22,988 nt of DNA from a virus: IMG/VR virus record IMGVR_UViG_3300023199_000139, positions 1 to 22,988 of that record; one strand, written 5' to 3'. Below the pieces are notes generated by a model. It was not told where the DNA came from and ran no database searches. It was given only the letters and a program-made list of their open reading frames with translations. Made by a program: the position numbers and the translations under genes. Shown here one piece after another: positions 1,628 through 17,078 of this stretch (its first letter is position 1; the number at the start of each line of letters is the position of its first letter).

Positions 1628-1795
1628 ATGCCCACGCCGCGCGTCGAGACAATCCAGCGCCGGATCAGGGCACTTGAGGCCGCGGGCTACGTCGTGCGGC
1701 GCGTCGCGGCCGACGGGTCGATCGAGGTTGCCAAGCGCGGCCAGGACGGAGAGGATACAGACGAGCTGGCGCTGATCGACATGAGGCGACGATGA
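1628..1795 (+). CDS. 55-aa basic protein upstream of integrase (possible directionality factor)
   Basis: A small frame encodes MPTPRVETIQRRIRALEAAG, then YVVRRVAADG and an acidic stretch ending DMRRR. It starts four bases after the upstream TAG, and its stop overlaps the integrase ATG (ATGA at 1792-1795), so it is held in the operon on both sides. The N-terminal half is a basic helix, followed by what looks like a short beta hairpin. Its size, charge and place just before int fit an excisionase or recombination directionality factor, but no winged-helix signature is clear and a plain hypothetical is equally possible. Confidence 0.6.
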   Translation: MPTPRVETIQRRIRALEAAGYVVRRVAADGSIEVAKRGQDGEDTDELALIDMRRR

Positions 1796-2766
1796 AGCGG
1801 GATCTGCCGCGCTACGTCTACCGCAAGCCCGGCGGGCTCTATTTCTGGCGCCGCCCCGGCGCGGCCGTGAAGATGCAGGCGGAGCCTTTAACAGACGCCT
1901 GGTGGGCCGAATACGCGCTTCTCCTGAAGGGCACGCCGCCGCCGCCGAAGGGCAAGACGTTCCGCGCGCTCATCGCCTCCTACCGGCGCAGCGACCGCTA
2001 CACGCGCCGCGCGCCCCGCACGCGACGCGACTACGACAAGGTGCTGACCTTCCTCGAGGACAGGCTCGGCAGCCAGGATCCGACCCGGGTCGCGCGCCAT
2101 CACGTTGTCGGCTGGCGCGATCAGAACAGCGGGCGATTCGCCGACTACCTGGTGCAGGTGCTGCGCGTGCTGTTCGAGCACGCGATCGACCAGGGCTGGC
2201 GCGACGACAACCCGGCCAAGGGCGTGCGGGCCACCTACCGCCCGAGCGGGCGGCGCAAGCCCTGGCCCGACGACCTGGTCGCGGCCGCGCGCGCGACGGC
2301 CACCGGCGAAACGCTGGTGCTGTTCGAGCTGCTTGTCGGCACCGGCCAGCGCGTCGGCGACGTGCTGCGCATGCGCTGGGCCGACATCGCCGGCGACGCG
2401 ATCCATGTCGGCCAGTCCAAGACCGGCGCCGAGCTTTGGGTGCCCTTCACCGCCCGGCTGCGCGAGACGCTGCGAAGGGCCCCGAGGCGGGGCGAGACGA
2501 TCCTGACCAGTAAGCGCGGCGGGCCGCTGTCCTACCGCGCCGCCGCCGACAGGATGCGCAAGCTGCGCGCGGCCATCGGCGCCGGCGAGGCGCACGACAC
2601 GCACGCCCTGCGCTACACGACAACGGCCGAGCTGGCCGCGCTCGGCTGCGACGACGACCTCATCATGGCCGTCACCGGCCACCGCTCGCAGGCAATGGTC
2701 GCGAAATATGCCGGCGCGGCCCGGCAGCAGGTGCGCGCCATCGAGGCGCAGAATCGCCGGAACTGA
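1792..2766 (+). CDS. int: Tyrosine recombinase / phage integrase
   Basis: This 324-residue site-specific recombinase would catalyse integration and excision at the adjacent tRNA-Cys site. The N-terminal part (about 1-55) looks like an arm-binding domain and about 56-145 like the core-binding SAM-like domain. The catalytic domain runs from about 155 to the end. Visible active-site residues are Arg187 (TGQRVGD), Lys210 (QSKTG), His271 and Arg274 (HALRY), His297 (TGHRS) and the nucleophile Tyr306 (AKYAG), so the enzyme looks intact. The ATG overlaps the stop of the 55-aa gene. The 3' end points at attP 80 bp away, the usual int-att arrangement. Confidence 0.95.
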   Translation: MKRDLPRYVYRKPGGLYFWRRPGAAVKMQAEPLTDAWWAEYALLLKGTPPPPKGKTFRALIASYRRSDRYTRRAPRTRRDYDKVLTFLEDRLGSQDPTRVARHHVVGWRDQNSGRFADYLVQVLRVLFEHAIDQGWRDDNPAKGVRATYRPSGRRKPWPDDLVAAARATATGETLVLFELLVGTGQRVGDVLRMRWADIAGDAIHVGQSKTGAELWVPFTARLRETLRRAPRRGETILTSKRGGPLSYRAAADRMRKLRAAIGAGEAHDTHALRYTTTAELAALGCDDDLIMAVTGHRSQAMVAKYAGAARQQVRAIEAQNRRN

Positions 2767-2817: not shown

Positions 2818-2846
2818 GATGCTGCGCCGGATCGCCTAAATCATTG

Positions 2847-2891
2847 AGGCGAGTGCGGGATTCGAACCCGCGTAGACGGATTTGCAATCCG
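2847..2891 (-). other. attP: attP: 3' half of tRNA-Cys (GCA)
   Basis: Read on the minus strand, this gives the anticodon stem-loop with GCA, the variable loop, a perfect T-arm around GGTTCGAATCC and the acceptor strand CACTCGCCT: the 3' half of tRNA-Cys. No D-arm or 5' acceptor strand (expected GGCGAG) lies upstream, that is to the right, and the genome-encoded CCA is replaced by CAA. It is therefore an attachment site, not a working tRNA gene. The acceptor end faces the integrase, which is the phage-borne (attP) orientation. A small inverted repeat, TCGCCT/AGGCGA, spans 2832-2852. Confidence 0.85.
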
Positions 2892-3094
2892 GCATGATGA
2901 TCAATAGTTTCAATTTGTTAGCGTGCCCCGCGGCGCTGGACGGAAAGCGAACGAAACGGGAACTGTGCCAGCATACATGCCGGCCAGCGTCACGCCATTC
3001 TGAGAGCCGGACAACCGGCGCGGATGCACCAACGGGGCCTGGAAGCAGTCGCTCATACCGAATCGAGTTCGCACGACCGTCGAGCGCGCCCTCG
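2892..3094. other. Non-coding spacer between attP and repeat array
   Basis: I see no credible gene here. Its first part (to about 2960) is less GC-rich than the rest of the window, and it contains one arm-like word (2962-2970) and one GAACGAA word (2949-2955). Open frames crossing it run through the tRNA fragment or the repeats and look accidental. It probably contains the outer arm of attP. Confidence 0.5.
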
Positions 3095-3263
3095 AGCCTA
3101 GCAGAAGAAGCGGCGCGGCCAAACCCGGACCCGACTGAGAGCGATGCTGCCTGCTACCTGAAGCCTAGCAGAAGAAGCGGCGCGGCCAAACCCGGACACG
3201 GCTGCCCAGGCGCCTCAACCGGGCCGGAGCCTAGCAGAAGAAGCGGCGCGGCCAAACCCGGAC
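3095..3263 (-). CRISPR. Mini CRISPR-like array: three 36-bp repeats, two unique spacers
   Basis: Three perfectly identical 36-bp units lie at 3095-3130, 3162-3197 and 3228-3263. They are separated by 31 bp (3131-3161) and 30 bp (3198-3227) that do not resemble each other. On the minus strand the unit begins GTCCGGGTTTGG and ends TCTGCTAGGCT. A 36/30 geometry is standard for several CRISPR types, and as I recall it, alphaproteobacterial type II-C repeats are 36 nt with a similar GCTAnnCT end. No cas gene or tracrRNA is visible. The first minus-strand repeat starts directly after the stop of the last late gene, with no leader. The unit lengths (67 and 66) are out of frame with each other, which argues against a coding repeat. 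A non-CRISPR intergenic repeat cannot be excluded. Confidence 0.5.
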
Positions 3264-3539
3264 CTACCTTCCCGTGACCAGATACACCGACGCGCCGACG
3301 ATGGCGGCGATCAGCATCCGAACGCCCCATTCGGACTCGCCCATCTTGGCGCCGCGTCGGGCGCCCTCGACCTCGATCGCCTGCACGCGACCCTGCAGGG
3401 CGCGCAGATCCTCGCCGGTCTTCCGCTCCATCTGGATGTTCTGCGCCAGCCGCTCCTCGACCATCGCCAGCTTCTCGACCGCCTTCATGAGCGCCTCGAG
3501 GCGCCGCTCGACCGATTCGTGCCACTGCTCGTCGGTCAT
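3264..3539 (-). CDS. XhlA-like small coiled-coil membrane protein
   Basis: This is a 91-residue protein, MTDEQWHESVERRLEALM..., with a heptad-like charged N-terminal helix region (about 5-62) and one hydrophobic C-terminal segment (about 72-88, WGVRMLIAAIVGASVYLV). That layout matches the XhlA/haemolysin-type phage proteins that assist holins at the inner membrane. The ATG at 3539 was chosen for its GGGAGG ribosome site at spacing 5; an in-frame ATG at 3551 lacks one. It is the last late gene. No separate classical holin is seen in the window, so this may supply that role. The TAG stop abuts the repeat array. Confidence 0.65.
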   Translation of the reverse strand: MTDEQWHESVERRLEALMKAVEKLAMVEERLAQNIQMERKTGEDLRALQGRVQAIEVEGARRGAKMGESEWGVRMLIAAIVGASVYLVTGR

Positions 3540-3553
3540 CCGGCCTCCCATGC

Positions 3554-3994
3554 CTAGAGCCCCAGCGCCGCCGGCGGCGCCGGGGCGGTGCCATCCTCGA
3601 TCCGCACGACGTCGAACTCCACGTCCAGCGCCGCCAGGCGCCGGCGCCCGCCCTCGACGTCGACGCGCGTGCCGGCGGGCACCAGGTCGGCCAGAAGGCC
3701 GCCCATCCGCTCCGGCGCCGCCATGATGGCCTCGATGGCGCTGTCGGCGGCCGCCTCCATGTCGGCGCGCGCGCTCGCCGGGTCGGGCGCCGCCCAGAGC
3801 CGCACGGTCAGCCTGCCCGAGAGCTGCCAGCCGCCGCGCTGCGCCCGCGGCTCGGCCTCGTCCATCTCCAGCTCGACGGCAAAGGCCGGCAACCCCGATT
3901 CCGGCGCCGCCGCCGCCTCGCCCGTGCGGTCGGCGGCGTTCGGCCAGGCGCCGGCGAGCCGCGCGCGCGCCTCGGCGACCACCGCCGCGCTCAC
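3554..3994 (-). CDS. gpU-like tail terminator protein
   Basis: This is a 146-residue protein. After an N-terminal helix (VVAEARARLAGAW) come LPAFAVELEMDEAEP, WQLSGRLTVRLWA, a helical segment, VPAGTRVDVEGG and LDVEFDVVRI, the strand-helix order of lambda gpU and similar tail terminators, which cap the growing tail tube. Similarity is by pattern, not strong identity. It starts at GTG (3994), overlapping the upstream TGA (GTGA). Its place after the tail fibres is unusual: terminators normally precede the tube gene, and none is seen between the FII-like and tube genes here, so this is likely the missing one. Confidence 0.5.
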   Translation of the reverse strand: MSAAVVAEARARLAGAWPNAADRTGEAAAAPESGLPAFAVELEMDEAEPRAQRGGWQLSGRLTVRLWAAPDPASARADMEAAADSAIEAIMAAPERMGGLLADLVPAGTRVDVEGGRRRLAALDVEFDVVRIEDGTAPAPPAALGL

Positions 3995-4683
3995 ACCGGC
4001 GCCTCGGGGCGCATGGCGGTGACGCCCAGGCGCAGCGTCCCGCCGGTGAAGTTGCCGCCATTGGCGGTGACGATCACGTCCTCGGCCGAGAACGCGTTGT
4101 AGGTCGAGAGCCCGACATTCGAGCTGCCGACGGCGGTGCCGAGGGAGCCGCCGAACTGCGCGGTGGCGCCGGACCGGCCCACGTCATAGCTGCTCGCGCC
4201 GGTGACCTCCGCCGTCACCCAGGAGGTGACCGCGACGACGAGCGTCCGCGCGGGCAGGAGCCCCGAGGCGGTCACGCTCGCGCCCGACAGCCCGGACAGC
4301 TCCGCCTCGACCTGGACGAGCCCCGCGCTCGACCCGAAGGCGCCGGCCACCGCGCCGCGCCGCCAGGCGGCGCCGTCATGCACCCGCTCGGCTGCCTCGT
4401 CCGCGACGAACAGCCGCCAGCCGCGCGCAGGCGTCGCGAAATGCCAGATGCCGCCCGTGCGCACCGCGACGTCGCCCTCGGCGCCGCCGCCCCAGCCCGT
4501 TGGCGCGGCCGGGAGGATGTAGACATCGCCCTCGGCCGGGCTCGCCGGCGCCGCCGCCACCGTCGCCGAGATGGCCGCGCCGCCCAGCACCGCGTCGAGG
4601 ATGTCGAGCGCGGCATTGTGCGGGACATGCGGCTGCGCCTGCCCCTCGGCCAGATACGGCAGTTGCCAGAGCGACGAGCCCAT
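3991..4683 (-). CDS. DUF2793-type tail protein with C-terminal beta domain
   Basis: This is a 230-residue protein. Residues about 5-115 (LPYLAEGQAQPHVPHNAAL..., SPAEGDVYILPA, GWRLFVADEAAERVHDGAAW) match the DUF2793 family found on alphaproteobacterial phage tails and GTA loci. Residues about 128-230 (LSGLSGASVTASGLLPA ... VIVTANGGNFTGGTLRLGV) form a beta-rich domain shared with the protein encoded just upstream. The ATG at 4683 overlaps the upstream TGA by one base; GTG at 4686 is an alternative start. The likely role is a fibre or spike part at the tail tip, by context. Confidence 0.7.
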   Translation of the reverse strand: MGSSLWQLPYLAEGQAQPHVPHNAALDILDAVLGGAAISATVAAAPASPAEGDVYILPAAPTGWGGGAEGDVAVRTGGIWHFATPARGWRLFVADEAAERVHDGAAWRRGAVAGAFGSSAGLVQVEAELSGLSGASVTASGLLPARTLVVAVTSWVTAEVTGASSYDVGRSGATAQFGGSLGTAVGSSNVGLSTYNAFSAEDVIVTANGGNFTGGTLRLGVTAMRPEAPV

Positions 4684-5150
4684 CACGCGATCGCGAGGTC
4701 GATCCAGGCGGCGGTCACGACGACCTCGCCCGCGGTGAAGTTGCTCCCGTTCGCCGTCAGCACCACGTCGCCGGCAGCGGCGAGCGCGGCGGGAGAGATG
4801 GCGCCAGCGTTCTTGGTGCCGACCGTGAGCGCCAGGGCGTCGCCATAAGCATTCACCGTGGAGCCGTCACCGACATCGAACGACGTCGCGCCGGTGATCT
4901 CGACCGTCACCTCCACCGCGACGCCGAGCAGGATGGCGCCGGCCGGGACAAGCCCGGCCTCGGTCACGCTCGCCCCGGACAGCCCGGTCAGCGTCGCGCT
5001 GGCAAAGGCGATGCCGGCCGAGACGCCGTTGCCCGCGTGCGCCCGCCCGTTGTTCGCGTCCAGCGCGTCGAGCGCGGCGCCGATCGTGGCCAGCGGAAAC
5101 ACCTCGGCCTGCCCCGGCTTGTCGATGTTGAGAAGTGTCGTCTGCGCCAT
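4683..5150 (-). CDS. Tail-fibre-like protein with repeat beta domain
   Basis: This is a 155-residue protein. A short N-terminal helical part (LATIGAALDALDANNGR) precedes a Val/Ala/Thr/Gly-rich beta domain (about 50-150: LTGLSGASVTEAGLVPA, VEITGATSFDVGDGS, VVLTANGSNFTAGEVVV). The domain is paralogous to the end of the next protein. It lies three bases after the megatron stop, so it is probably a small fibre, or an adaptor fitting a fibre to the tip. It is smaller than most receptor-binding fibres and has no visible enzymatic motif. Confidence 0.6.
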   Translation of the reverse strand: MAQTTLLNIDKPGQAEVFPLATIGAALDALDANNGRAHAGNGVSAGIAFASATLTGLSGASVTEAGLVPAGAILLGVAVEVTVEITGATSFDVGDGSTVNAYGDALALTVGTKNAGAISPAALAAAGDVVLTANGSNFTAGEVVVTAAWIDLAIA

Positions 5151-5153
5151 GCC

Positions 5154-8100
5154 TCACTCCCGCACGGTGATTTGCGTTTCCGCCCCGGCCCCCCAGGCGT
5201 CGCCGATCTGCGCCAAGCGCACATCATATGGTGGCACGGCGCCGTCATCCGACTGCATGCTGGCCGTGTAGTTAAAGCTCGGTGATGCCACAGTCGCGAC
5301 GCGCCACGGCGCGCCGGCCGGGCCGATCTCCACGCGGTAGCTCTCGGCGCTCTCGCCGATCGGCATCGGCGCGCCGTCGGGCGGCAGCGTCGGCGCCAGC
5401 AGGCGCGAGCGGCGCAGCCAGGAGATCACGCGATCCCCTCCCGAGGCCGCGACGCGGACGAAATGCGGCGCGTAGGGCCGGCGCCCGACGCCCGCGACCG
5501 TCTCGGAAATCACGGCGCGCTCGGCCTCCGGCACGGTCGGCGGGCCGTGGCGATACCACCGCGCCGCGCCCAGATCGGCGGTCGCCAGGCCCGCCGGCAC
5601 CGCCGCGCCGTCGAGCAGCACGGCCCGCGCCCCGGCGCCAAGCGGCGCGGCGTCCGGCACGCCCTCGGTCCCGCGCACGCCGCGCAGGAGCCGCGACAGC
5701 CGGTAGGTGCCCGCGCCGATGAGCTCCGCATCGCGGAACTGCACGATCTCCCAGCCCGCCGCGTGGCGCAACGCAAGCGCGTTCGCCCCGGCGAGCACGT
5801 CCTCCTCGGTCCGGCTGACGAGCTGCCCGGCGAAGAGGCGCAGATCCAGCGTCCCGCCGCTCCACCGCCAGGCGCGGCCGGGCGCGAGGTCGGTCAGCGT
5901 CTCGCCCAGGGCGCCGCGGACGACGAGGTTGCGCGCCGCGGCGAAGCTGCCGTCCTGCGCCGCCGCCCGATCGACGACGACGACCCCGGGCCAGGGATCG
6001 GCATGCGCCACGAGCCAGGCATCCCAGTCCTCGATGTCCGTGGAGACCAGCGGCAGGTCCATGACCGAGAGCGTCACCGTGCTCGATCCGATCACCGGGA
6101 GCGCGCGCGGCTCGCGGAACACGCCGCGGGCCAGCGCGAAGGCGGCGCGGTCGATCGTCTCGGCCTCCACGTCCAGCGCCGCGCCGCGCTCGAGGCGCGT
6201 GACGAACAGCTCGCGCACCGGCAGCCCGGCATGCGTCTCGACCGGCAGGATCGCCGCCGGCCGCAGATCGACCGCCGATGGCGGCGCTGCCAGCCGCGCC
6301 ACCTCGCGCCCCGCCCGCGCCGAGGCAAGCAGCAGTTGCGCCGCTTGGTGGCCGGTGTCGAAATCGAAGGTCAGCGGCACCCGGGCCTCGGCCGGTGTCA
6401 GCTCGGGCGCCGCCTCGCGCCGGGCGACGGCCGTCGCCGGCTCGTAGTCGCGCGCCGCGTCGCGGAATGTCAGCCGCGCGACCGAGGGAACGTCCTCGGC
6501 CGCCCGGCGGGTAACGGTCACGCGCGGCCCCTCGCGCGCGGCGACAAGCCGCGTGTTCGCCAGCACCCCGAGGCGCGGCGCCGCGCCGCGCGTGCCGGCA
6601 TGGACGATGCCGCCCTCCTCCCAGATCGTCAGCGCCAGCGCCTGCTGCAGCGGCGCGGCGACCTGGCGGAAATCGATCGGCGCGGTCACCTCGTAGCCGG
6701 CGACCTGCCCGAAGGCGCGGCTCACAGCGAGCCGGTCCGCCGGCAGCCCCGCGCGCAGCAGCCGCGCCTCCACGATCGCGGCCACCGGCGCACTGCCCGC
6801 CCGGCCGTTCAGCCAGTGGCCCAGCCGCCAGTCCGGCCCGTCCGCCCACAGATCGTCCTGCGTCGGGAACTCGGGCCAGGGCCGCGCATCCCAGGCCCAG
6901 ACCTGAACGTCGTCGATCGCCACGATCCCGGGTGCGTTGTCGCGCCACCACTCGATCTGCGCGCGCAGATACTGGCGCTGCATGAAGTCGTCGCGCACGC
7001 CCGCCGCGAAATGCGGCAGATCGCTCTCCGAGCTTTTCGGCGAGTAGAACACGGCGGGCTGGTTGGCCCCGAAATCCACCGCCGGGCAGCCCAGCTCGGT
7101 GAACCAGACGGGCTTCGATCCCGGCACCCAGGCCGTCGCGGCAGGAACGGCGCGGGATCCCTCAGTCTTTGTATACGGCAGCACGCCGGCGCTCGCCGTC
7201 AGCTGCGCCCCGTTTCCAGCGGAAAGCACGGCAATCTCTGGGCTGCCGGTGCCCGAATGCCTCAGGTGAACGTAGAATCCGGCGCCCGTGATCGTGCCCG
7301 CAGTGGTTCCCGTGACGGAATACTCGTGCCAATTCCCGTCGTCAGTCAGGGTTATATTGGTGTTGTCCTTCACAACTACTGTTGGAATATGCTCTCGGAT
7401 TGAGAGGAGGAAATCGGAAGCGGAGCTCCCCCCAAGCGTCACCACCTTCACCATTATGCTGAACGTGTAGGTGGTGCCCGGCGACAGGGGAAAATTGTTA
7501 TTCGACTGAAACAGGTTGCCACCCCCTGAGCTCCACTTCACCGTGTTGTCCGAGCCGCTAGTGGACTTCACTGGACTGCCACCTCCGGCCACCATCCAAA
7601 CGGACGCGGTGAGGTCCTCTGACCATTCCAGCAGGTTATTGGGCTCGACCCCGCCCGGGCGGTCGTAGTGGGCGTTCCCGTGCCAGTCGCGGATCGCCTT
7701 CTGGCGAAAGACCCAGGGCTTGCCATAGGTGGCGTCCTCGATCGGTGTGCGGACCTGCGCCGCGCGATCGGCGTCGCTGGCGTAATACCAGTCCCAGAAC
7801 TCGCCGCCCTCGACGTTGCCCTTCAGATAGCCGAGATCGTAGACGCTGGTGACGCCGGCCGCGTCGTCATGGTCCAGGTGATCCTCGCCAGGCCGCCAGT
7901 CCGACAGCGGCAGGTAGTTGTCGATGCCCACGAAACCGACATTCGCGTCCGCCCAGAACGGATCGAGGTGGAAGCGCACGTCGCCGCCCTCGCGGTGCGA
8001 GTGATACTCCGACCAGTCGGCGGCATAGCTGACCTCGGCCCCCGGCAGCACCGCCTTGACGTCGGCGGCCAGCGTGCGCAGCGCATCGACGAATGGGTAG

Positions 8101-9524
8101 CTGCCGTCGGGCGCCCGCGCCATCGTCAGACCCCGCAGCTCGGTGCCGACGAGGAAGGCCTCCACCCCGCCGGCGGCCTTCGCGAGATGCGCGAGATGCA
8201 GGATGAAGCGTCGCCATCTCCATTCCTCCGGCCCCGAATACTGCACCGCCCCGTCCACGACCGCGAAGTCAGACACCTGCGCGGTGCCGACGAAGGCGGC
8301 GATCTCGGCGGCCACGTCCTGGCCGGCCTCCGGCGCGATCCGCCCGCGCCACGGATAGGCGCCCTGCGTGCCGCTTCCGGACGGGTCGGGCAGCGCCTGC
8401 GCCTCGGTGATGTCCATCATCAGGAACGGGTAGAGCACGCGGCGCAGCCCGCGCGTGGCGAGGTCTTCCAGCGCCGCGATCACCGCCGCGTCGGCCGGCG
8501 CCGCGCCGAAGGCGGGCCGGCCGTCCGCCTGCGAGACGACAGTCGCGCTCGCCCGTGTCAGCCCCGCCGCCGCCCAGGCGGGCGACGTCTCCTTGTCCTT
8601 GCGCTCCACGCGCGGCTCGACCCGGCACTCGCCGGCGCGCAGATCGGTGCCGAACCAGCTCACGACCAGGCTCGCCGTGCCGAGCGCCGGCATCACCCCC
8701 TGGGCGAGGTCCATCGACAGGCGCCAGTCGCTGGCCCGCGCGTGCCGGTGATTGTTCTCCGGCTGCTCCTCGATCACGTTGCCCTGCGAGTCGCGCGAGA
8801 CCTGCGTGACCACGCCGGGATCGTAGCCCCAGCCGGTCGTGCCGGGGATGATGTTCACCCCGCGCAGCAGGTCCGCCTCCAGCGTGCCGGACCTGCCCCA
8901 CAGCTCGACGCGCAGCTGGGGGACGCGATTGCCGTAATCGGCCAGCGCCAGCGCCTCGAGCACCAGATAGGCGGTGCCGAGGAAGGCGGGCGCGCCGTCC
9001 TCGACCGCCTCGATCGTCGGATCGATCGGCTGCACCTCACTGCCCTTGTAGACGCGCAGGCGCCCGTCATCGATCATGGCCGTCGGGTCGAACAGATCGC
9101 CATCGGCCCAGATGCGCCCGACATGGGCGATCTCGCCCTCCGACAGGCTGACGGCGATCGAGATGTCGTATTCATACGTCACCTCAGTGGTCGTCGTCGA
9201 CGCCTTGCCCGAGCCGACCGTGATATCCTCCTCGACCCGCGTCTCGCGGATCTCGGTCGCCCAGATCATCGTCCCGGGCACGGCTGTCCGCCCCCACACC
9301 TCGGGCAGAGGTGCGCCCTCCTGCGCCAGCGTCACCTGCAGGTTGTCCAGCCGCGGCCCCTCGGTGACCTGCCCGTCGCCGCCCGAGAGCAGCATCGTGT
9401 CGACCGCCCGGCCCGCCAGCGCGCCCACCGCCTGGCCGATCTGGACGGCACTCACGCCCAGCACCGACCCGCCGATCGCCGAGCCGACGGCGCCGCCCGC
9501 TAGGCCGAGGATCAGCGTCGCCAC
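5154..9524 (-). CDS. GTA gp15-like megatron / host-specificity tail tip protein
   Basis: This 1456-residue protein is the RcGTA gp15 type that forms the tail tip, binds the host and carries a glycosidase-like TIM barrel. The GTG at 9524 was chosen because the family N terminus (VATLILGLAGGAVGSAIGG) begins there; it overlaps the upstream stop by 13 bp. A hydrophobic Gly-rich N terminus is followed by hub-like beta domains. The TIM barrel spans about 380-890 (GPEEWRWRRFILHLAHLA ... PVWFTELGCPAVDFGANQP), with J-like tail-3 and C-terminal beta domains after it. The barrel is split by about 165 foreign residues (about 628-795) that look like a carbohydrate-binding jelly roll and are encoded by clearly AT-richer DNA. 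Confidence 0.9.
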   Translation of the reverse strand: MATLILGLAGGAVGSAIGGSVLGVSAVQIGQAVGALAGRAVDTMLLSGGDGQVTEGPRLDNLQVTLAQEGAPLPEVWGRTAVPGTMIWATEIRETRVEEDITVGSGKASTTTTEVTYEYDISIAVSLSEGEIAHVGRIWADGDLFDPTAMIDDGRLRVYKGSEVQPIDPTIEAVEDGAPAFLGTAYLVLEALALADYGNRVPQLRVELWGRSGTLEADLLRGVNIIPGTTGWGYDPGVVTQVSRDSQGNVIEEQPENNHRHARASDWRLSMDLAQGVMPALGTASLVVSWFGTDLRAGECRVEPRVERKDKETSPAWAAAGLTRASATVVSQADGRPAFGAAPADAAVIAALEDLATRGLRRVLYPFLMMDITEAQALPDPSGSGTQGAYPWRGRIAPEAGQDVAAEIAAFVGTAQVSDFAVVDGAVQYSGPEEWRWRRFILHLAHLAKAAGGVEAFLVGTELRGLTMARAPDGSYPFVDALRTLAADVKAVLPGAEVSYAADWSEYHSHREGGDVRFHLDPFWADANVGFVGIDNYLPLSDWRPGEDHLDHDDAAGVTSVYDLGYLKGNVEGGEFWDWYYASDADRAAQVRTPIEDATYGKPWVFRQKAIRDWHGNAHYDRPGGVEPNNLLEWSEDLTASVWMVAGGGSPVKSTSGSDNTVKWSSGGGNLFQSNNNFPLSPGTTYTFSIMVKVVTLGGSSASDFLLSIREHIPTVVVKDNTNITLTDDGNWHEYSVTGTTAGTITGAGFYVHLRHSGTGSPEIAVLSAGNGAQLTASAGVLPYTKTEGSRAVPAATAWVPGSKPVWFTELGCPAVDFGANQPAVFYSPKSSESDLPHFAAGVRDDFMQRQYLRAQIEWWRDNAPGIVAIDDVQVWAWDARPWPEFPTQDDLWADGPDWRLGHWLNGRAGSAPVAAIVEARLLRAGLPADRLAVSRAFGQVAGYEVTAPIDFRQVAAPLQQALALTIWEEGGIVHAGTRGAAPRLGVLANTRLVAAREGPRVTVTRRAAEDVPSVARLTFRDAARDYEPATAVARREAAPELTPAEARVPLTFDFDTGHQAAQLLLASARAGREVARLAAPPSAVDLRPAAILPVETHAGLPVRELFVTRLERGAALDVEAETIDRAAFALARGVFREPRALPVIGSSTVTLSVMDLPLVSTDIEDWDAWLVAHADPWPGVVVVDRAAAQDGSFAAARNLVVRGALGETLTDLAPGRAWRWSGGTLDLRLFAGQLVSRTEEDVLAGANALALRHAAGWEIVQFRDAELIGAGTYRLSRLLRGVRGTEGVPDAAPLGAGARAVLLDGAAVPAGLATADLGAARWYRHGPPTVPEAERAVISETVAGVGRRPYAPHFVRVAASGGDRVISWLRRSRLLAPTLPPDGAPMPIGESAESYRVEIGPAGAPWRVATVASPSFNYTASMQSDDGAVPPYDVRLAQIGDAWGAGAETQITVRE
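7140..7643 (-). other. Inserted carbohydrate-binding-like domain in megatron
   Basis: This segment encodes NNLLEWSEDLTASVWMVAGG ... TYTFSIMVKV ... GNWHEYSVTGTT ... PYTKTEG, the pattern of phage-borne CBM/jelly-roll modules (NLL-x-W-S-E-D ... Y-T-F-S). It lies between RPGGVE and TAWVPGSKP, which are adjacent in GTA gp15 homologues as I recall them. GC drops to roughly half within it, against 70% or more on both sides, and Asn, Ser and Thr rise, indicating recent acquisition. The frame is kept. The likely role is binding host surface polysaccharide. Confidence 0.75.
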
Positions 9525-9928
9525 GGGATTGCCCAGGCGCTGGTGATCCGCCGCGGCGGCGCCGAGGTGACGACGACGCCGCGCCGCCGGTCGGCGCCGA
9601 TCAGGCCCTCTGGCAGGCGGATCGCGACATGCGCGGCGCGGCAGGCGCCGACGCGGAACAGGATCACGTCGCCCGGCTCGCCGGGCAGCGGCCGGCGCAC
9701 CAGGTGCCGGCGCAGCGCCGCCAGCAGCGGCAGCCGCGCATCGGCGTGCCAGCCCGGCCGCCAGGCCGGCGCCGGCGGCACGGCGCCGGTCAGCTCGCCG
9801 ATGATGCCCCGGACGAGCCCGACACAGTCGCACCCCGCCCCGCGCAGCGCCGCGTTCGCGTGCCAGGGCGTGCCGGCCCACCGCCGCGCCGCCGCACAGA
9901 CCTCGCCGGCGGGCCAGGGCTCACTCAT
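9512..9928 (-). CDS. NlpC/P60 tail peptidase (GTA gp14-like)
   Basis: This is a 138-residue cell-wall peptidase of the tail tip, thought to cleave peptidoglycan peptides during DNA entry. The NlpC motif GCDCVGLVRG gives the catalytic Cys35, and AAHVAIRL gives His100. LPGEPGDVILFRVG is the typical strand between them. The ATG at 9928 overlaps the gp13-like gene by 8 bp and the 3' end overlaps the megatron start, the same order as gp13-gp14-gp15 in RcGTA. Length is normal for the family. Confidence 0.9.
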   Translation of the reverse strand: MSEPWPAGEVCAAARRWAGTPWHANAALRGAGCDCVGLVRGIIGELTGAVPPAPAWRPGWHADARLPLLAALRRHLVRRPLPGEPGDVILFRVGACRAAHVAIRLPEGLIGADRRRGVVVTSAPPRRITSAWAIPWRR

Positions 9929-10796
9929 GGCGCGATCCCCCGTCCTGGTCCGGGTCGCCGATCACCGCGTAATCCGCGGGGGCGCTCGCCGGCGGCATTC
10001 GCCAGAAGCCGCGGTGGCGCTCGAAGTTGGCGAACTTGTTCCGGCACGTGTCGGCGCTGCGGTCGCACCCGGCCGTCACCTCTATCGCGTCGCCGGCCGC
10101 GATCGCCGCCGGCACCTCGCGCCAGAGCTGCAGCTCGGTGCCCGCGGCGAGTTGCCGCGAGAGCCGGATATCCGCCTCGAACCCCGCCGCGCCGCCGTCG
10201 AGCATGCGCAGCCGGCCGAAATCGAAGAAGCCGGCGGCGGTGGCGTCGGGGATCGACAGGGTCGGCCCGGCGACCGAGTCCACGACCGTCTGGAACCGGA
10301 AGCCGCCCGCGTCCAGGTCGACGCCGCAGCGCGCGTCGCCCAGCCGCTCCACGTCGCAAAGCGGGCCCTGCACGCGCCCGCGCCTGCGCCCGAACACGGC
10401 GGCGGTGGACCGCATCTCGGCCCGGAAGGCCAGGTCGCGCCGCTCCACCTCGCCCAGCGTGAAGACGGCCAGCAGCCGGCGCGCGGAAACGTCCGTCCAG
10501 TCGACCTCCCAGAGCTCGACCTCGGCGCCGTCATAGACGCCGGCGCGCAGATCGGCCTCGGTGATGGCGTCCGAGGCCAGCGCGCCGGCCGCGTCCATCT
10601 CGCCCGTCCCGGCGCCGGCCTGCGACGACACGGCGCTCGCCTCCAGCGCGGCGCCGGCGGCAAAGGTGACGCCGTCGAAGGCGATGTCGCGGTCATGATC
10701 GGTGAAGCCCATCACGACGCCGTCGCGCCGCGCCAGCCGCCAGCAGAGCGCGCGCGTCGTCGCGCCGGTCAGGAGGGCGGCGTCGAGCCCGCTCAT
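9921..10796 (-). CDS. Baseplate hub protein, DUF2163 (GTA gp13-like)
   Basis: This 291-residue hub protein sits between distal tail and megatron. The N-terminal DUF2163 part (LCWRLARRDGVVMGFTDHDRDIAF) is very typical. Four cysteines, C147, C157, C244 and C251 (GPLCDVERLGDARC and GCDRSADTC), are spaced as in lambda gpL and GTA hub proteins, where they hold an iron-sulfur cluster. The C-terminal CRNKFANFERHRGFWRMPP is a family signature. The ATG at 10796 overlaps the upstream TGA. Confidence 0.92.
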   Translation of the reverse strand: MSGLDAALLTGATTRALCWRLARRDGVVMGFTDHDRDIAFDGVTFAAGAALEASAVSSQAGAGTGEMDAAGALASDAITEADLRAGVYDGAEVELWEVDWTDVSARRLLAVFTLGEVERRDLAFRAEMRSTAAVFGRRRGRVQGPLCDVERLGDARCGVDLDAGGFRFQTVVDSVAGPTLSIPDATAAGFFDFGRLRMLDGGAAGFEADIRLSRQLAAGTELQLWREVPAAIAAGDAIEVTAGCDRSADTCRNKFANFERHRGFWRMPPASAPADYAVIGDPDQDGGSRHE

Positions 10797-11473
10797 GCCC
10801 CGCCCCCGTCCAGCCGCGCCTCCACGAGGCCGATCGACGGCGCCCGCGCGCTGCCCTCCTCGCCCTCGAGGAAGTAAATCCACTCGACGCCCAGCTCGGC
10901 CGCCTCGAAGCGCACCGGCACGTCGAACTCGAAGCCGGCTGTCAGCGCCGTGCCCGCCGCCGGAGGCGTGTCGAAGGTAATCGTCCCGCCCGGCACGGTC
11001 AGGCTGAAGGCCGTGGTCGCCGCGCCGTCCACCGCCGCGACGACGGTGCCGGCGACGGGCAGGGCGATCGGCCGCAGGTAGCCGTTCAGCACCCCGTAGC
11101 GTTTGACGAGCTGGAAGCTCGCGGTCGCGCCGTCGCCGGACGCCTCGGTGTAGCCGCCGGCGCCATCGTCGGCGCCGAGCGGCTGATCCGTCGCCGCGAT
11201 CGCCTGGTCGGGCGGGGCCGAGCGCCAGTCCGCCCAGTCGCGCATGCGGAACGTGTGCAGCCGCCCGCGCGCGGCCTCGAAGATCGCGACGACCGATTCC
11301 AGATCGGCGGCCGTCTTCAGCGCGTAGCCGATCTCGTAGCGCCGGCGCGAGGCGCGCCAGCGGCTGTTCACCTCCACCGCGCCCGAGGCCAGCTCGACCA
11401 GGTCGTCGCGCCGCTCGATCACCGCCGTCGCGCCGGCGGCGATGTCGCGCGGGATCTCCAGGTCCAGATGCAT
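10793..11473 (-). CDS. Distal tail protein, DUF2460 (GTA gp12-like)
   Basis: The 226-residue protein begins MHLDLEIPRDIAAGATAVIE and contains GRLHTFRMRDWADWRS and ASFQLVKRYG, hallmarks of the DUF2460 family (RcGTA gp12) that rings the distal end of the tail tube. The start overlaps the tape-measure stop as TAATG, which fixes the ATG at 11473 even though the frame is open further upstream. The C-terminal part (EWIYFLEGEEGSARAPSIGL) is beta-rich. Length is near the family norm of about 210 residues. Confidence 0.92.
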   Translation of the reverse strand: MHLDLEIPRDIAAGATAVIERRDDLVELASGAVEVNSRWRASRRRYEIGYALKTAADLESVVAIFEAARGRLHTFRMRDWADWRSAPPDQAIAATDQPLGADDGAGGYTEASGDGATASFQLVKRYGVLNGYLRPIALPVAGTVVAAVDGAATTAFSLTVPGGTITFDTPPAAGTALTAGFEFDVPVRFEAAELGVEWIYFLEGEEGSARAPSIGLVEARLDGGGA

Positions 11474-13506
11474 TACCGCCCCCGCTGCCCGGCCGCGACG
11501 GCGCGGGAAATCTCGCGGCCGATCTGGGCGCGCGACCGCCGGAAGTTTTCCGGATCGGGCGTCTGGATATTCACGGTGACATTCGTGGCCGGCGCCTCGC
11601 CCCGGCGCGTCACCTGCACCTCCTCGCCGGCCGACAGGCGCACCGGCGCCAGGTTGCGGTCGATGCCGGCGACCCCCCCCACGGTGAACGCGCCGCCCCG
11701 GTCGAATCCCAGCAGCTCGCCGACGCCGCTCGCCAGCGCGGTCAGCGGGTTGCCCCGCGCGGGCGTCCCGCCCGTGCCGCCCTGGCCCAGCAGCGCCTCG
11801 ACATTGCTCGCCAGCGTGTCCCAGGCGGGCGAGAAGGCGAGGTCCAGCAGCCAGTTGGCCGCCTGCTCGAACACGCCCCGCCACAGATCCCCGAACGAGC
11901 TGACGCCCGTCGCGAGGCCGGTGATGTTCTGTTTCAGCGCGTCCCATACCGGCGCGCCGGCCAGCGTCTCCACGCTGGTGCCCAGCGCGTCGACCTCGTC
12001 CGCCGCGTCGCCCGCCGCCCCGCCGACCGCGCCGACGCTCTCGGGCACCTCGCCGGGCACCTCGGGCACATCTCCGGTCATCTCGCCGAGCTGGCGCATG
12101 TTCTCGCGGGTCCGCTCGAGCAGGTCGAACAGCTCGCCCGTCGGGTCGATCAGCGCGCGCTGTCGGGCGCTCAGCTCGCCGAGGCGATCGATCCAGAACT
12201 CGATGTCCGCGCGGTTTGCCTGCGGCGCGAAGACGCCGCCATCGCGGGGCGTGTTGCGCAGGTTGTCCAGCCGCGTGCGAACCTGCTCGATCTCGCCGGC
12301 CAGCGCCCGGTATTCGGGGCTCGTCCGCGCCAGCGCCCGACGCTCGGCGACGATCGCCTGCACGTTCTGGAACCGCGCCCGCGCCTCGCCCAGCTTCTGC
12401 GCCACCGCGGCCGCCGACAGCTGCGTATCGCTCGCCAGGACGCCCGACAGGTCTTCCGCCGCGCGCCGCTCGTCCCGGAATGCCTCGGTCGCCGTCCCCG
12501 TGCTCCCGGCCAGGCGGTCCGTCTCGGGCCAGAGCGCGGCGACGACGCCGATCAGCGCGCTGATCCCGGTGATCACCGTCGTCACGGGCCCGCCCAGCGC
12601 GCTCGCCGCGATGGTCAGCGCGCCCAGCGCCGCCGTCACGGGCGGCAGCGCCGCCGCGACCAGCCCCAGGTTGACCGCCAGCGACTGCGAGGCGGGCGAG
12701 AGCGCGTTGAACCAGTCCACAACGCCGCGCACCATCCCCGTGATCCCGTCCAGACGGTCGGCCAGCTCGCCGCCGACGACCTCCTTCAGATCGCCCCAGG
12801 CATTGCCGAGCTGCTCGATCGAGCCGGCGCCCGCCAGCGCCGCCTCCGCCTGCCCGCCGACCTGCGCCGCGACCTTGTCCAGGATTAGCGCCTGCGCCTC
12901 GGCCAGCCGGCCGGACTCGGCCAGGCGCTCGACCATTTCTTCCTGCGCGTTCGTGAACACGATCCCGGCGCGGCCCAGCCGCGTCAGCCCGTCCGCCGGC
13001 TCGGCCAGCGCCCGGCCGAGGCGCGTGGCCGTCGGCGCCAGCCCCTTGTCGGTCGCCGTCGCCAGGTCGAGCGTCAGGCGCGTGGCGCGCGTCAGCTGAT
13101 CCTCGGCGATGTTGCCGAAGGTGACGAGCTGGGTCGTGACGTCTCCGAGGATCGCCTCGTCGCCGAAGCGGCTGACCGCCTGCAGCCCGCTCGCCTGCTC
13201 GAAAAGCTGGCGGGCGGTCACGCCCGCGGCGCCGCCCGTGGCCGCGATCGCCTGGCGCACGCGCGCCTCGGCCTTCGCCTGCTCGTCGTAGAGCGCGATC
13301 GAGTCGCGGAAGGAGGCGACCAGACCGGCCGACGCGGCGGAGCCGGCCAGGCCGACATTGCGCAACCCCCGGCCGACATCGCGCACCCGCTCACGCGTGC
13401 GCCGCGCCGCCCCCTCGACGTCGCGCAGGTTGCGCTTGACGCTGCCGAAGGCGCGGTCCGAGGCGTCCCGCCCGACGATCCGGAACAGCAGGTCGCGCAC
13501 GCCCAT
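11473..13506 (-). CDS. Tail tape measure protein
   Basis: This 677-residue protein sets tail length; at about 1.5 angstrom per residue it implies a tail near 100 nm, hence a siphovirus. The N-terminal half is helical with coiled coil (about 1-250). A hydrophobic stretch at about 275-326 (NLGLVAAALPPVTAALGALT ... ISALIGVVAALW) may enter the host membrane during ejection. A second helical region (about 330-460) follows. The C-terminal GGAFTVGG ... LSAGEEVQVTRRG ... FRRSRAQIGREISRAVA is the common alphaproteobacterial tape-measure tail. It starts at an ATG just after the T-like chaperone. Confidence 0.93.
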   Translation of the reverse strand: MGVRDLLFRIVGRDASDRAFGSVKRNLRDVEGAARRTRERVRDVGRGLRNVGLAGSAASAGLVASFRDSIALYDEQAKAEARVRQAIAATGGAAGVTARQLFEQASGLQAVSRFGDEAILGDVTTQLVTFGNIAEDQLTRATRLTLDLATATDKGLAPTATRLGRALAEPADGLTRLGRAGIVFTNAQEEMVERLAESGRLAEAQALILDKVAAQVGGQAEAALAGAGSIEQLGNAWGDLKEVVGGELADRLDGITGMVRGVVDWFNALSPASQSLAVNLGLVAAALPPVTAALGALTIAASALGGPVTTVITGISALIGVVAALWPETDRLAGSTGTATEAFRDERRAAEDLSGVLASDTQLSAAAVAQKLGEARARFQNVQAIVAERRALARTSPEYRALAGEIEQVRTRLDNLRNTPRDGGVFAPQANRADIEFWIDRLGELSARQRALIDPTGELFDLLERTRENMRQLGEMTGDVPEVPGEVPESVGAVGGAAGDAADEVDALGTSVETLAGAPVWDALKQNITGLATGVSSFGDLWRGVFEQAANWLLDLAFSPAWDTLASNVEALLGQGGTGGTPARGNPLTALASGVGELLGFDRGGAFTVGGVAGIDRNLAPVRLSAGEEVQVTRRGEAPATNVTVNIQTPDPENFRRSRAQIGREISRAVAAGQRGR

Positions 13507-13509
13507 CGA

Positions 13510-13644
13510 TCACCCCCGCGATTGCTGCGCCAGGTAGGCGCGCCAGCCGGCCAGCTCCTCGCGCGGCAGATCGAGGATTTCCGTCACCGACTTGCCGAGA
13601 CGGAGCGCCAGCGCGTAGTGGCCCGCCGCCTCCGTCTCGGCCAT
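13510..13644 (-). CDS. Tail assembly chaperone, T-like 44-aa frame
   Basis: A short frame encodes MAETEAAGHYALALRLGKSV then TEILDLPREELAGWRAYLAQ. The pattern LALRLG-x-SV-x-EILDLP-x-EEL-x-W-x-AYL is that of lambda gpT-like/DUF4035 chaperone tails, which recruit the tape measure. It follows the G-like gene in the -1 frame with a TGATG junction, so it may be made alone by reinitiation or as a frameshift extension of the G-like protein. It ends three bases before the tape-measure ATG. Confidence 0.75.
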   Translation of the reverse strand: MAETEAAGHYALALRLGKSVTEILDLPREELAGWRAYLAQQSRG

Positions 13645-13991
13645 CACTTTTCCATCTCGGCCTCGTCCGACCCGCCCAGGATCGCCGAGGCGATCCGCGC
13701 CAGGAGCCGCCCCTCGACATGCTCCGACAGCAGGCGCACCGTCTCGGCATCCTCCGCGAACATGCGCTCGCCGGCCTCCGTTTCGGCCTTCAGGATCACC
13801 GTCCAGAGCGACATCGCCGCCTCGCTGGCGCCGGCCCGGCGGCGGATCTTCGCCCCCTCGGCGTTGGTCACCGGCCGCCACCAGACGACCAGCGGCGCGC
13901 CGTCGGGGCCCGTGATCTCCGGCACCTCCAGCGACTGGCGCCCCAGCCGCTCGAAATGCCGCGCCATCAGCTCCGCGACCGAGCCCGTCAC
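13644..13991 (-). CDS. Tail assembly chaperone, G-like
   Basis: This is a 115-residue protein between tail tube and tape measure, where lambda G and its analogues lie. It contains LEVPEITGPDGAPLVVWWRPVT, a strand-turn-strand start typical of these chaperones, then helices (NAEGAKIRRRAG, LLARIASAILGGSDEAE). It starts at GTG (13991), overlapping the tube-gene TGA; ATG at codon 9 is an alternative. Such chaperones bind the tape measure during tail building and are absent from the virion. Assignment rests mainly on position plus the T-like neighbour. Confidence 0.7.
   Translation of the reverse strand: MTGSVAELMARHFERLGRQSLEVPEITGPDGAPLVVWWRPVTNAEGAKIRRRAGASEAAMSLWTVILKAETEAGERMFAEDAETVRLLSEHVEGRLLARIASAILGGSDEAEMEK
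13647..13653 (-). promoter_or_regulatory. Possible -1 frameshift slippery site GGAAAAG
   Basis: Directly before the stop of the G-like frame the minus strand reads G GAA AAG TGA. Slipping -1 gives GGA AAA GTG ATG GCC and enters the T-like frame without a stop. It differs from the lambda G/T site (GGGAAAG), and pairing after slippage in the P site would be imperfect, so plain coupling is also possible. Confidence 0.3.
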
Positions 13992-14377
13992 GGCGCCGTG
14001 CTCTCGGTCAGGGCACCGTCGCCCTGGAAGTTGACGGTCTTCGTGACCCAGCCATCCTTCGGCACGCTCAGCGGCACGCCGGTGACGACGACGCTGCCGG
14101 AAAAGAAGGCGTTGCCCGTTGCCTCGCCGCCGGGGAACAGCTCGACCGACAGCGTGTCGCCCGGCACGATATTCGCGCCGGCCGTCTCCGTCGGGTCGTA
14201 GTAGAACTCCATCGACCCCTCGAAGGATTTCACCGTGGCCCGCGTGGCCATCCAGGCGTCGCCCATGCCGTAGCCCTGGGTCGTCTCGGCGCGCTGGTCG
14301 ACGTTCCAGCGCTGGACCGAGCCGACGGCGCTGCCGCCGACCTTCACGATCCCGTCATAGCCGTGATAATCCGCCAT
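13988..14377 (-). CDS. Major tail tube protein
   Basis: This is a 129-residue protein, MADYHGYDGIVKVGGSAVGS..., beta-rich, with GSMEFYYDPTE, GDTLSVELFPGG, GNAFFSGSVVVTGVPLSV and KDGWVTKTVNFQGDG, the sequence style of short siphovirus tail tube proteins (the FFSGSVVVTG hairpin and the final VNFQG strand). It follows the head-tail joiner and precedes the chaperones, as expected. The ATG at 14377 has a GGAGG site; GTG at 14380 is in frame one codon before. The hexameric rings it forms make the tube. Confidence 0.85.
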   Translation of the reverse strand: MADYHGYDGIVKVGGSAVGSVQRWNVDQRAETTQGYGMGDAWMATRATVKSFEGSMEFYYDPTETAGANIVPGDTLSVELFPGGEATGNAFFSGSVVVTGVPLSVPKDGWVTKTVNFQGDGALTESTAP

Positions 14378-14694
14378 CACGCTTCCTCCAGAACCAGCCG
14401 GGACAGCCCGGCGCCGTCGCTCCGCGCCTCCACGACGCGCCAGGTCACGCCCGCGCGCTCCAGGCTGTCACCGGCCGCCGGCGGCGCCAGCAGGTCCGCG
14501 TCGAAGAGCGCCGCCACCGGCGCGCTCGCCGCGACGCCGGGATCGGCGCCGGTCAGCGCCGCGACATGCGGCGCCTCGAAGATCGCCGGCACCTCGGCCG
14601 CCATGCCGCCGGCGGGCGTGTAGCTGACGACCTCGCCGAAGGCGCGCGTGTCCATGAACACCGCGCGCTCGGCCGCTCCCTCGATCTCAGCCAT
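14377..14694 (-). CDS. Head-tail joining protein, lambda FII-like
   Basis: This is a 105-residue protein, MAEIEGAAERAVFMDTRAFG then EVVSYTPAGG and later VTWRVVEARSDGAGLSRLVL. The F-D-T-x-x-F-G-E-x-V-x-Y-T-P-A-G-G opening and the closing beta strands match the FII/phage-attachment family, which sits at the head neck and receives the tail. It overlaps the previous gene by 8 bp and joins the tube gene through TGATG. Length is close to lambda FII (117). Confidence 0.75.
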   Translation of the reverse strand: MAEIEGAAERAVFMDTRAFGEVVSYTPAGGMAAEVPAIFEAPHVAALTGADPGVAASAPVAALFDADLLAPPAAGDSLERAGVTWRVVEARSDGAGLSRLVLEEA

Positions 14695-14932
14695 CGCCGC
14701 CGCCCCCGGCCCTGCGCTTGCCGCGCGCGACGCGCGGCGCGTCCGTCGGCGCGCCGCCCGCCTCCATGCGGGTCTCCGCCGGCGCCTCGACCGGCGCGGC
14801 TTCGCCGGCCGGCCGCGCGCGGCCCCGCGCGATCATCCGGCGCGCGAGCGCGGGATCGATGTCCAGCGTCTCGCCCGGCGCGCGATCGGCCCCGGCGATC
14901 CGGCTCGCCACTGTCAGCGTCACTTCGGTCAT
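14687..14932 (-). CDS. Small hypothetical protein downstream of capsid
   Basis: The 81-residue protein begins MTEVTLTVASRIAGADRAPG then ETLDIDPALARRMIARGRAR and ends in a basic, Gly-rich tail. Short proteins with this RIAG-x-D-R-APGE and RRMIARG opening are often found next to phage capsid genes, but I know no function. It has a GGGGAG ribosome site, as expected after the hairpin that separates it from the capsid gene. It could be a minor head or connector part. Confidence 0.65.
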   Translation of the reverse strand: MTEVTLTVASRIAGADRAPGETLDIDPALARRMIARGRARPAGEAAPVEAPAETRMEAGGAPTDAPRVARGKRRAGGGGDG

Positions 14933-14950
14933 GTGGTTGTCTCCCCTCAG

Positions 14951-14976
14951 GCGCCGGGCGGCACGCCGCCCGGCGC
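14951..14976 (-). terminator. Perfect GC hairpin after capsid gene
   Basis: GCGCCGGGCGGC, two bases, then GCCGCCCGGCGC form a perfect inverted repeat in the only sizeable gap (55 bp) of the late operon. No U-run follows on the minus strand (CTGAGGGG), so it may be a leaky terminator or an mRNA-protecting stem that keeps capsid mRNA high relative to tail genes. Confidence 0.5.
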
Positions 14977-14987
14977 GTCAAGCCCGA

Positions 14988-17078
14988 TCAGGCGTTCTTG
15001 CCCATGTGGAAGCTGTCGGTGCGCAGCACCGCCACATCCACGTCCTGGAAGGCGCGCAGCACCGTCCCGCCCGACTTCGCCAGAGTCGCCGTGTCGGCGG
15101 ACAGATCGACGCCCGACCACATGCCGATGGCCAGGTCCGCCCAGTTGCCGAAGAAAACCTCCCAGTCGGCGACAAGGTTGGTGCGCAGCCGGCGATAGCC
15201 GTTGACCGTGCCCTCCGGCGTCTCGGCATAGACGGGCGCCCCGGTCGTCTGCAGCTTCGAGCGCAGATGCCCGGAGGTGCGCGCGTTGTAGACGTAGGAC
15301 AGGTTGCCCAGGTCCGCGTTGTCGACCGCGACCTCCGTCTCGAGCTCGACCATCTCCGGGTAGGTCGGATCGTTCGCCGCCGCCCAGGTGCTGGCCCCGC
15401 CGACGATCGAGTCGCGCAGACCGTCCGGCGCGTCCGCGGCGGCGCTGCCGATGATCGCGGCGCCGTCGATGGCCCGGGCGATCTTCTCGACGATCGCGCG
15501 TCGGATCACCGCCTCGATGTCGGGTGAGCCCTGCAGCATCATCTTGCGCGTGATCGGCACGCCCACGCCCAGCGTCTTCGGCGACATCGTCACCTGCCCG
15601 AAGGTCGCCTGGCTGTCGCTCACGTCCTCGGCCTCGCCGACCCAGTAATGCGTGACGTCCCCCGTCATCTTCGGGATCTGGATGTCGCCGCGCAGCCCGG
15701 TCAGCATCGTCGCGCCGGCCTCGGCCAGCACCAGGCGGTCGCGCAGGAGCTCGATGAAGGAGCTCGCCAGGTGCTCCGTCGCCACCAGGTTGCCGCCGGC
15801 GGTGGGCGTGCCGACATTCTGCGCGCGTTGCCCGCCGGCGAGGCCGGGCGCGAAGGTCACGTCGGGCGGGATCATCGCCCCGCGTGTCTCCCGGCCCAGA
15901 TGGCGCTCGGCCGCCCGGCTCGCCTCGAGCTCGAAGGCCGCGCGCTCGGCGTTCTCTGCCGAGGGCTCCATCAGATACCGCACAAGGTTGAAGACGCTGA
16001 AACGCTGCGCCTCGGCCGCGCTCATCCCGATCTGCGTCGCCCGCGCGCCGGTGCCCTGCTCGCCGCCGGCGCGCACCCGGTCGAGCACTCGCTGGCGGAA
16101 CGTGTCGGCCGGCGTCCCGTCCTGCCGCGCGGCGGCGGCCATGTCGGCCGGCAGGTCGAACTCGCGCGCCATCGCGTCGATCGCGGCGACGCGCCGGCGC
16201 TCCTCGGCCAGCGGAGCTTCGCCGCCGCGCGCCTCGGCCGGCGCGGCCCGCGCCGCCGGCTGAGGCGCCGCCTGCCCGGCCGCCTCACCCTGGCGGGTGC
16301 TCCCGTCGCCGCCGGCCGGGGTCGCGCCACGCTCGCCCGGTTGCCCCGCCGGCGCCGCGCCCTGCCCGGGCGTCTCGCCCTGGCGCGTGCCCGCCTCGCC
16401 GCCGGGCTGCGCACCGGCGGCCGGCGCGCCGCTCCCGGCGCCGCTCTCCGTCCCGGCCCCCGCCTGGTCGGCGCGCGTGCGCGCAACTTCCAGGGCCGAG
16501 GCCCCCCGATCCTCGCGGCCCTGCCGGACCGCCACACCACCGTCAGGCATCTCGCTCTCCTCTGTCTGCCTGCCCACACCGACGGACATGTCCGCCGGCA
16601 CCGCCACGAAGCTCACTTCCCGGGGCTGCCAGCGCGTGACGCGGATCACCGGCAGCCCGTCCCTCGTCCCGGACTCGCGCGCCTCGAGGATCGAGTAGCC
16701 CACGCTCAGCCCGGCGATCTCGCCGCGCCCGGCGCGCGCGAACAGCGCCTCGGCCCGGTCGGTGCGGTGGCGGCGCAGCACCCCCACCGCGCGCCCGCCG
16801 GCCAGCGTCACGCCGGCCAGCGTGCCGACGACCGAGTCCACCGCCGCGGCATGGTCGGTCAGCACCGGCACCAGCCCCGACTCCACGCGCGAGACATCCA
16901 GCTCCCCCTCGCGATGGCCCAGCACCTCCCAGAAGCGCTCGCCCGTCGTGAAATCCATCCGCAGCACCGGCGCCTCGGACGAGATCGGCGCGACGATCTC
17001 GGACGGGGCGACGGCCTCGGGCGCGGACCCGGCCATCGGCTCGAGCCGCCATTGCGCTGCCCTCGCATCTCGCGTCAT
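14988..17078 (-). CDS. Prohead protease-major capsid protein fusion
   Basis: This 696-residue protein joins two head functions. Residues about 35-170 are a prohead protease: LTDHAAAVDSVVG holds His76 and EIAGLSVGYSI holds Ser125. About 175-290 is a low-complexity Gly/Ala/Gln linker with two GSTRQGE/GTRQGE units. About 285-345 is a helical, scaffold-like delta region. About 350-696 is an HK97-fold capsid protein (GGNLVATEHLASSFIELL, TPEGTVNGYRRLRTN, near-C-terminal DVDVAVLRTDSFHMGKNA). The ATG at 17078 overlaps the portal TGA; the open frame further upstream is a portal shadow. Such fusions are known in some phages; the protease presumably cuts itself and the linker away. Confidence 0.9.
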   Translation of the reverse strand: MTRDARAAQWRLEPMAGSAPEAVAPSEIVAPISSEAPVLRMDFTTGERFWEVLGHREGELDVSRVESGLVPVLTDHAAAVDSVVGTLAGVTLAGGRAVGVLRRHRTDRAEALFARAGRGEIAGLSVGYSILEARESGTRDGLPVIRVTRWQPREVSFVAVPADMSVGVGRQTEESEMPDGGVAVRQGREDRGASALEVARTRADQAGAGTESGAGSGAPAAGAQPGGEAGTRQGETPGQGAAPAGQPGERGATPAGGDGSTRQGEAAGQAAPQPAARAAPAEARGGEAPLAEERRRVAAIDAMAREFDLPADMAAAARQDGTPADTFRQRVLDRVRAGGEQGTGARATQIGMSAAEAQRFSVFNLVRYLMEPSAENAERAAFELEASRAAERHLGRETRGAMIPPDVTFAPGLAGGQRAQNVGTPTAGGNLVATEHLASSFIELLRDRLVLAEAGATMLTGLRGDIQIPKMTGDVTHYWVGEAEDVSDSQATFGQVTMSPKTLGVGVPITRKMMLQGSPDIEAVIRRAIVEKIARAIDGAAIIGSAAADAPDGLRDSIVGGASTWAAANDPTYPEMVELETEVAVDNADLGNLSYVYNARTSGHLRSKLQTTGAPVYAETPEGTVNGYRRLRTNLVADWEVFFGNWADLAIGMWSGVDLSADTATLAKSGGTVLRAFQDVDVAVLRTDSFHMGKNA

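Follow-up and report, generated by a model that had tools for sequence, protein, structure and literature searches.

Phage mini-arrays with host-like repeats and without a leader or cas genes are an established class, for which the function favoured below has been proposed already (PMC6858448, PMC11656645, PMC8616872). According to PMC6858448 and PMC8616872, which cite the survey of Faure et al. 2019, virus-borne mini-arrays such as those of SPV1 and SPV2 of Sulfolobales have one or two spacers, host-like repeats and no cas genes, and they lie between phage genes; the array described here shares the spacer number, repeats and position, and no cas gene turned up among the window genes scanned. 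The mini-arrays of bacterial phages cited there are leaderless, as this one is, whereas the SPV1 and SPV2 arrays come with a leader and with targets identified in sister viruses, neither of which was found for the present array. Many phage mini-arrays have a single spacer; the present array has two, is of the kind used by a Cas9/tracrRNA system and directly follows a late operon. Type II viral mini-arrays without a tracrRNA have been described before (PMC8616872, PMC11656645), so the array belongs to a known class. RNA anti-CRISPRs (Racrs) are likewise instances of CRISPR-repeat mimicry by phages without cas genes; they are solitary repeats with no second repeat nearby, whereas three repeats and two normal spacers are present here. 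Type II-C CRISPR-Cas9 loci of Rhodobacteraceae (L004, L031, L005, L029, L030 and others) have the same repeat (33–35 of 36 nt, i.e. 1–3 mismatches), spacer length and tracrRNA pairing, but they also have cas9-cas1-cas2, a tracrRNA gene, a leader with a G-rich end and, behind the last repeat, a terminator, whereas in the phage fragment the array alone was found.

The window, i.e. the whole stretch of DNA analysed, is a linear virus record of 22,988 bases, and its array lies on the minus strand at 3095–3263. In crRNA direction, repeat 1 (3228–3263, GTCCGGGTTTGGCCGCGCCGCTTCTTCTGCTAGGCT) is followed by the 30-nt spacer S2 (3198–3227, CCGGCCCGGTTGAGGCGCCTGGGCAGCCGT), repeat 2 (3162–3197), the 31-nt spacer S1 (3131–3161, TCAGGTAGCAGGCAGCATCGCTCTCAGTCGG) and repeat 3 (3095–3130). 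The repeats are identical over 36 nt and 66–67 nt apart, and S1 and S2 are dissimilar; the initial annotation had described them correctly at these positions, including the minus-strand repeat sequence. A search of the window with up to 3 mismatches returns exactly these three repeats, while none is expected from shuffled sequence, so three exact 36-nt copies at such spacing are not a chance occurrence. Two or more near-identical repeats with unique spacers of constant length make a mini-CRISPR array, and this one is carried by a virus: an integrase, an att site and a late operon occur on the same contig, with phage sequence on both flanks. It is a genuine phage-borne type II-C mini-array.

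Other origins for the repeats were considered and rejected. Some reading frames have ORFs across the array, but spacers of 31 and 30 nt disrupt the frame between units, which rules out a coding repeat. Chance or an unrelated intergenic repeat family, the latter left open in the initial annotation, is excluded by the shuffle expectation and by matches to Cas-linked Rhodobacteraceae arrays. An assembly mis-join at the repeats requires a true repeat on each side, and both flanks are phage-like; the phage-borne repeat therefore withstands the objection of a chimera, though spacer count and order could be affected. Folding of the array RNA gives no excess structure (z 0.88).

The repeat family was traced with an 18-nt repeat core (CTAGCAGAAGAAGCGGCG) in IMG/VR and 84,980 GTDB genomes. 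One IMG/VR contig (L004) matches, as do 33 stretches of GTDB genomes, which are mostly Rhodobacteraceae arrays or tracrRNA genes and sort into three groups. The first comprises long arrays that read GTCCGGG[C/T]TTGGCC[A]CGCCGCTTCTTCTGCTAGGAT in crRNA direction and occur in Rhodovulum, Paracoccus, Allgaiera, Ruegeria, Defluviimonas, Roseivivax, Rhodosalinus and other genera; the second comprises single matches within a conserved tracrRNA gene (...CTAGCAGAAGAAGCGGCGTGGTCTTTCCCGCGATAAGG...GGGGCAGGCTGCGGCCTGCCCC); the third is a few chance matches. Where host loci are intact, the array adjoins cas9-cas1-cas2 and the tracrRNA gene, which bears out the proposal that the phage array is of type II-C. 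Cas9 (TIGR01865) was detected in 13 of the 23 genomes reached through repeat matches; in the rest, the genome may be incomplete or the array an orphan. The closest repeat, in a Rhodobacteraceae MAG (L031), agrees at 35 of 36 nt; its first 34 nt are identical and it ends GGAT rather than the GGCT of the phage, at the end of a contig that carries cas2-cas1-cas9-tracrRNA. The L004 contig has 32 repeats (33 of 36 nt shared with the phage) beside Cas9 (TIGR01865, E 4e-148), type II Cas1 (TIGR03639) and Cas2 genes that lie upstream of the array, with the tracrRNA preceding cas9. A locus with cas9-cas1-cas2 and nothing else between counts as type II-C by the usual definition. The ending GCTAnnCT that the initial annotation gave for alphaproteobacterial repeats is slightly off: the host family ends TGCTAGGAT and only the phage copies end GGCT, an exact ending that is absent from every genome searched. 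Phage spacer lengths of 30 and 31 nt are those of the hosts, in which 240 of 267 spacers have 30 nt and 24 have 31 nt.

A guide that depends on tracrRNA must have a repeat that pairs with the anti-repeat, and such pairing is predicted here with three host tracrRNAs, as the initial annotation had suggested should be looked for. The predicted duplex between the phage repeat and the host anti-repeat is near-perfect, at -59 to -61 kcal/mol compared with -60 to -64 kcal/mol for the host repeats themselves and a mean of about -23 to -24 for shuffles. It has the same bulge as host repeats and 24 continuous pairs; an A-to-G change at repeat position 15, shared with L031, gives a G-U pair with host tracrRNA. 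Since its repeats match those of the Cas9 system of likely hosts, the phage can probably borrow host Cas9.

The array has the temperate-phage setting beside attP that had been recognized initially. A tyrosine integrase gene (1792–2766, plus strand; Phage_integrase PF00589, E 2e-22) precedes the 3′ half of a tRNA-Cys gene (2846–2892, minus strand; anticodon GCA), identified by inspection and taken as the putative attP core; a related phage, L055, has an equivalent site after its integrase. The tRNA-Cys core gave no host identification, with no match within 3 mismatches in the 23 genomes with this CRISPR family. Beyond the array, the late operon of a GTA-like siphophage (3991–22985, minus strand) encodes a DUF2793 tail fibre, a GTA TIM-barrel (GTA_TIM) host-specificity protein, NlpC/P60, tape measure, a prohead protease/capsid fusion, portal, TerL and TerS. 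ARAGORN also calls a tRNA-Ser(GCT) within the NlpC/P60 gene (9643–9722, minus strand), which is probably a false positive. The nearest named relative is Cronusvirus R4C. Cronusvirus (Dinoroseobacter phage R4C and Rhodobacter phage RcCronus) has the same GTA-like late genes, and parts of the tail gene are about 70% identical at the DNA level; unlike the window phage, R4C has no CRISPR repeats in the 18.7 kb examined. A search with the DUF2793 gene yielded no relatives.

The last gene of the late operon (3264–3551, minus strand) encodes about 95 aa with a C-terminal hydrophobic stretch and no family match. Its TAG stop (3266–3264) abuts repeat 1, which begins at 3263 in the same sense as the late operon; transcripts of the late genes that continue past this stop would thus include the array in crRNA sense. 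Neither a sigma-70-like promoter nor a terminator was detected at the array. Each phage repeat contains TTGGCC, 16 nt and then TAGGCT preceded by TG. Repeat-embedded promoters occur in Neisseria type II-C arrays, and the phage elements resemble them and may act as weak promoter-like elements, which the A-to-C change of the phage repeat would weaken.

Taken together, we favour with moderate confidence the reading that the leaderless type II-C mini-array of this temperate Rhodobacterales siphophage feeds two guides to host tracrRNA and Cas9, most likely against competing phages or plasmids. The array would be transcribed from the minus strand, either by late-operon read-through or with the help of weak promoter-like elements within its repeats. 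The transcript would then form a duplex with host tracrRNA that host RNase III would cleave. Array anatomy and precedent suggest that host Cas9 would thereby be loaded with two phage-chosen guides and could attack rival phages or plasmids sharing the cell. Such superinfection exclusion is the likeliest purpose of the array but is unproven, and transcription with the late operon would supply most guides during lytic growth, the stage at which exclusion brings the least benefit.

Whatever the array does would require host parts, because no tracrRNA core occurs in the 23-kb window (the best candidate has 15 mismatches in 34) and the scanned genes include no recognised cas gene. The nine window genes scanned have no cas or other defence matches, in agreement with the initial annotation; the window is a 23-kb linear fragment and the rest of the phage may carry some. 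A complete CRISPR-Cas system, with a cas effector, adaptation genes and tracrRNA, was thus not found within the 23 kb. In this family, the leaders of several hosts end GCGGGGGGGG..CGAnTTCACAGCAAT, and the last host repeat is followed by a terminator, CCCCGCGCAAC..GTTGCGCGGGG. Neither is found in the window: coding sequence occupies the place of a leader upstream of repeat 1, and repeat 3 has no terminator after it. With host leader, tracrRNA and cas genes not found, canonical leader-dependent spacer acquisition by the phage array is unlikely. The simpler origin is recombinational capture from a host array, which PMC6858448 likewise gives as the source of leaderless phage mini-arrays. None of 14 related virus records has the array, and L004, the only other IMG/VR carrier of the repeat core, holds a whole Cas9 locus; the array is therefore probably a recent gain.

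Targets were sought widely for both spacers. Near-exact searches of INPHARED and PLSDB gave chance-level matches only; exact 19–20-nt PAM-proximal seeds of S1 and S2 had no match in IMG/VR, nor did S2 in one wobble-tolerant scan of IMG/VR. No match of 26 nt with up to 3 mismatches to either spacer was found in 395 Rhodobacteraceae genomes, no protospacers occur in 15 virus records (the 14 relatives and L004), and there is no self-targeting in the window apart from the array itself. Because the IMG/VR scans were exact except for the single wobble-tolerant scan of S2, divergent targets may have been missed. Spacers of viral mini-arrays usually match related viruses, a feature that is not defining and that was not found for the present spacers; such spacers have matches in 67% (viruses) to 93% (proviruses) of cases (PMC8616872). 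Of the initial proposal of a tiny array that uses host Cas9 and tracrRNA against rivals, the type II-C repeat family is supported; for targeting of rival phages no protospacer was found in the collections searched. In the reverse direction, none of the 267 host spacers matches the window phage above noise. One Paracoccus bogoriensis spacer (L034), from an array of the same CRISPR family, agrees at 26 of 30 nt with positions 12310–12339 of L055, where the 3′ flank is CCAGAACC. L055 is a phage that shares the type of att site and has an integrase 85% identical to that of the window, so such phages do encounter CRISPR systems of this family.

The strongest rival is that a short piece of host array recombined into the phage and has so far been a functionless passenger, which we regard as unlikely. 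It would account for the missing leader and host terminator, the spacers for which no targets were found, the absence of the array from the relatives examined and the final bases GGCT, which are unlike those of all host arrays seen; expression of the array is also putative. Three repeats without a single difference and spacers of host-standard length nevertheless indicate that the array has not decayed, and its place exactly after a stop codon, in crRNA sense, also speaks against this reading.

A Racr-like decoy, in which the repeats would sequester host tracrRNA and Cas9 in complexes harmless to this phage, appears doubtful. Phage repeat-mimic RNAs inhibit several CRISPR types (PMC10651486), the predicted near-perfect duplex with tracrRNA suits such a decoy, RNA from 3′ of the late genes would be abundant on infection, and spacers without known targets would still serve. 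However, the Racrs described are solitary repeat units, and SRUFinder discards arrays and mini-arrays (PMC10651486); those tested cover I-C, I-E, I-F and V-A, and none is of type II. A decoy would also need less than three repeats and spacers of the proper length, and no defence-related neighbour was recognised. With comparably low probability, the array could be a 3′ extension of the late operon, i.e. a Cas9 guide cassette without leader or tracrRNA that is expressed late and in bulk, and that would provide both guides against co-infecting phages and a tracrRNA/Cas9 sponge; with TGCTAGGCT in place of TGCTAGGAT in every repeat, the embedded promoter would then be weaker and expression tied to the late operon. 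That the crRNAs make host Cas9 a repressor of the cas operon or of another host gene, like scaRNA or the long tracrRNA, is highly improbable: larger orphan arrays of huge phages can match host genes (PMC8616872) and partial matches would elude the searches made, but across 18 host cas loci S2 has no seed match longer than 8 nt and S1 has none of 8 nt.

The reading of a guide-supplying mini-array makes this locus a specific example, open to experiment, of a phage able to borrow host Cas9. Culturable species with a matching II-C locus exist (Rhodovulum, Paracoccus and Allgaiera), as do isolates of related phages. For archaea, virus exclusion driven by mini-arrays is cited as experimentally proven, and a Cas9-dependent bacterial case would extend that proof.

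Host arrays of this family have features of their own. In Rhodosalinus halophilus (L012), in whose genome Cas9 was not found, a remnant array of four repeats (2704–2872) is flanked by the host leader and terminator. A mixed array in L018 (7822–8000), about 330 bp from a tRNA-Ser gene, has one repeat of the phage-array family (TTCCGGGCTTGGCC..CTAGGGC), 31 nt and then repeats of a different family (GTTGCGGCTGGACCTCGAATTCTGAACTGCTAAGCT). The complete cas9-cas1-cas2-tracrRNA locus of L004 (2217–11687, with an array of at least 32 repeats from 11760) directly follows a P4-type primase and a CcrB-like serine recombinase on a contig classed as viral, and it may ride on an integrative element. Within that array (12060–12980), the same spacer-repeat units recur up to nine times in succession, which suggests array expansion by recombination.
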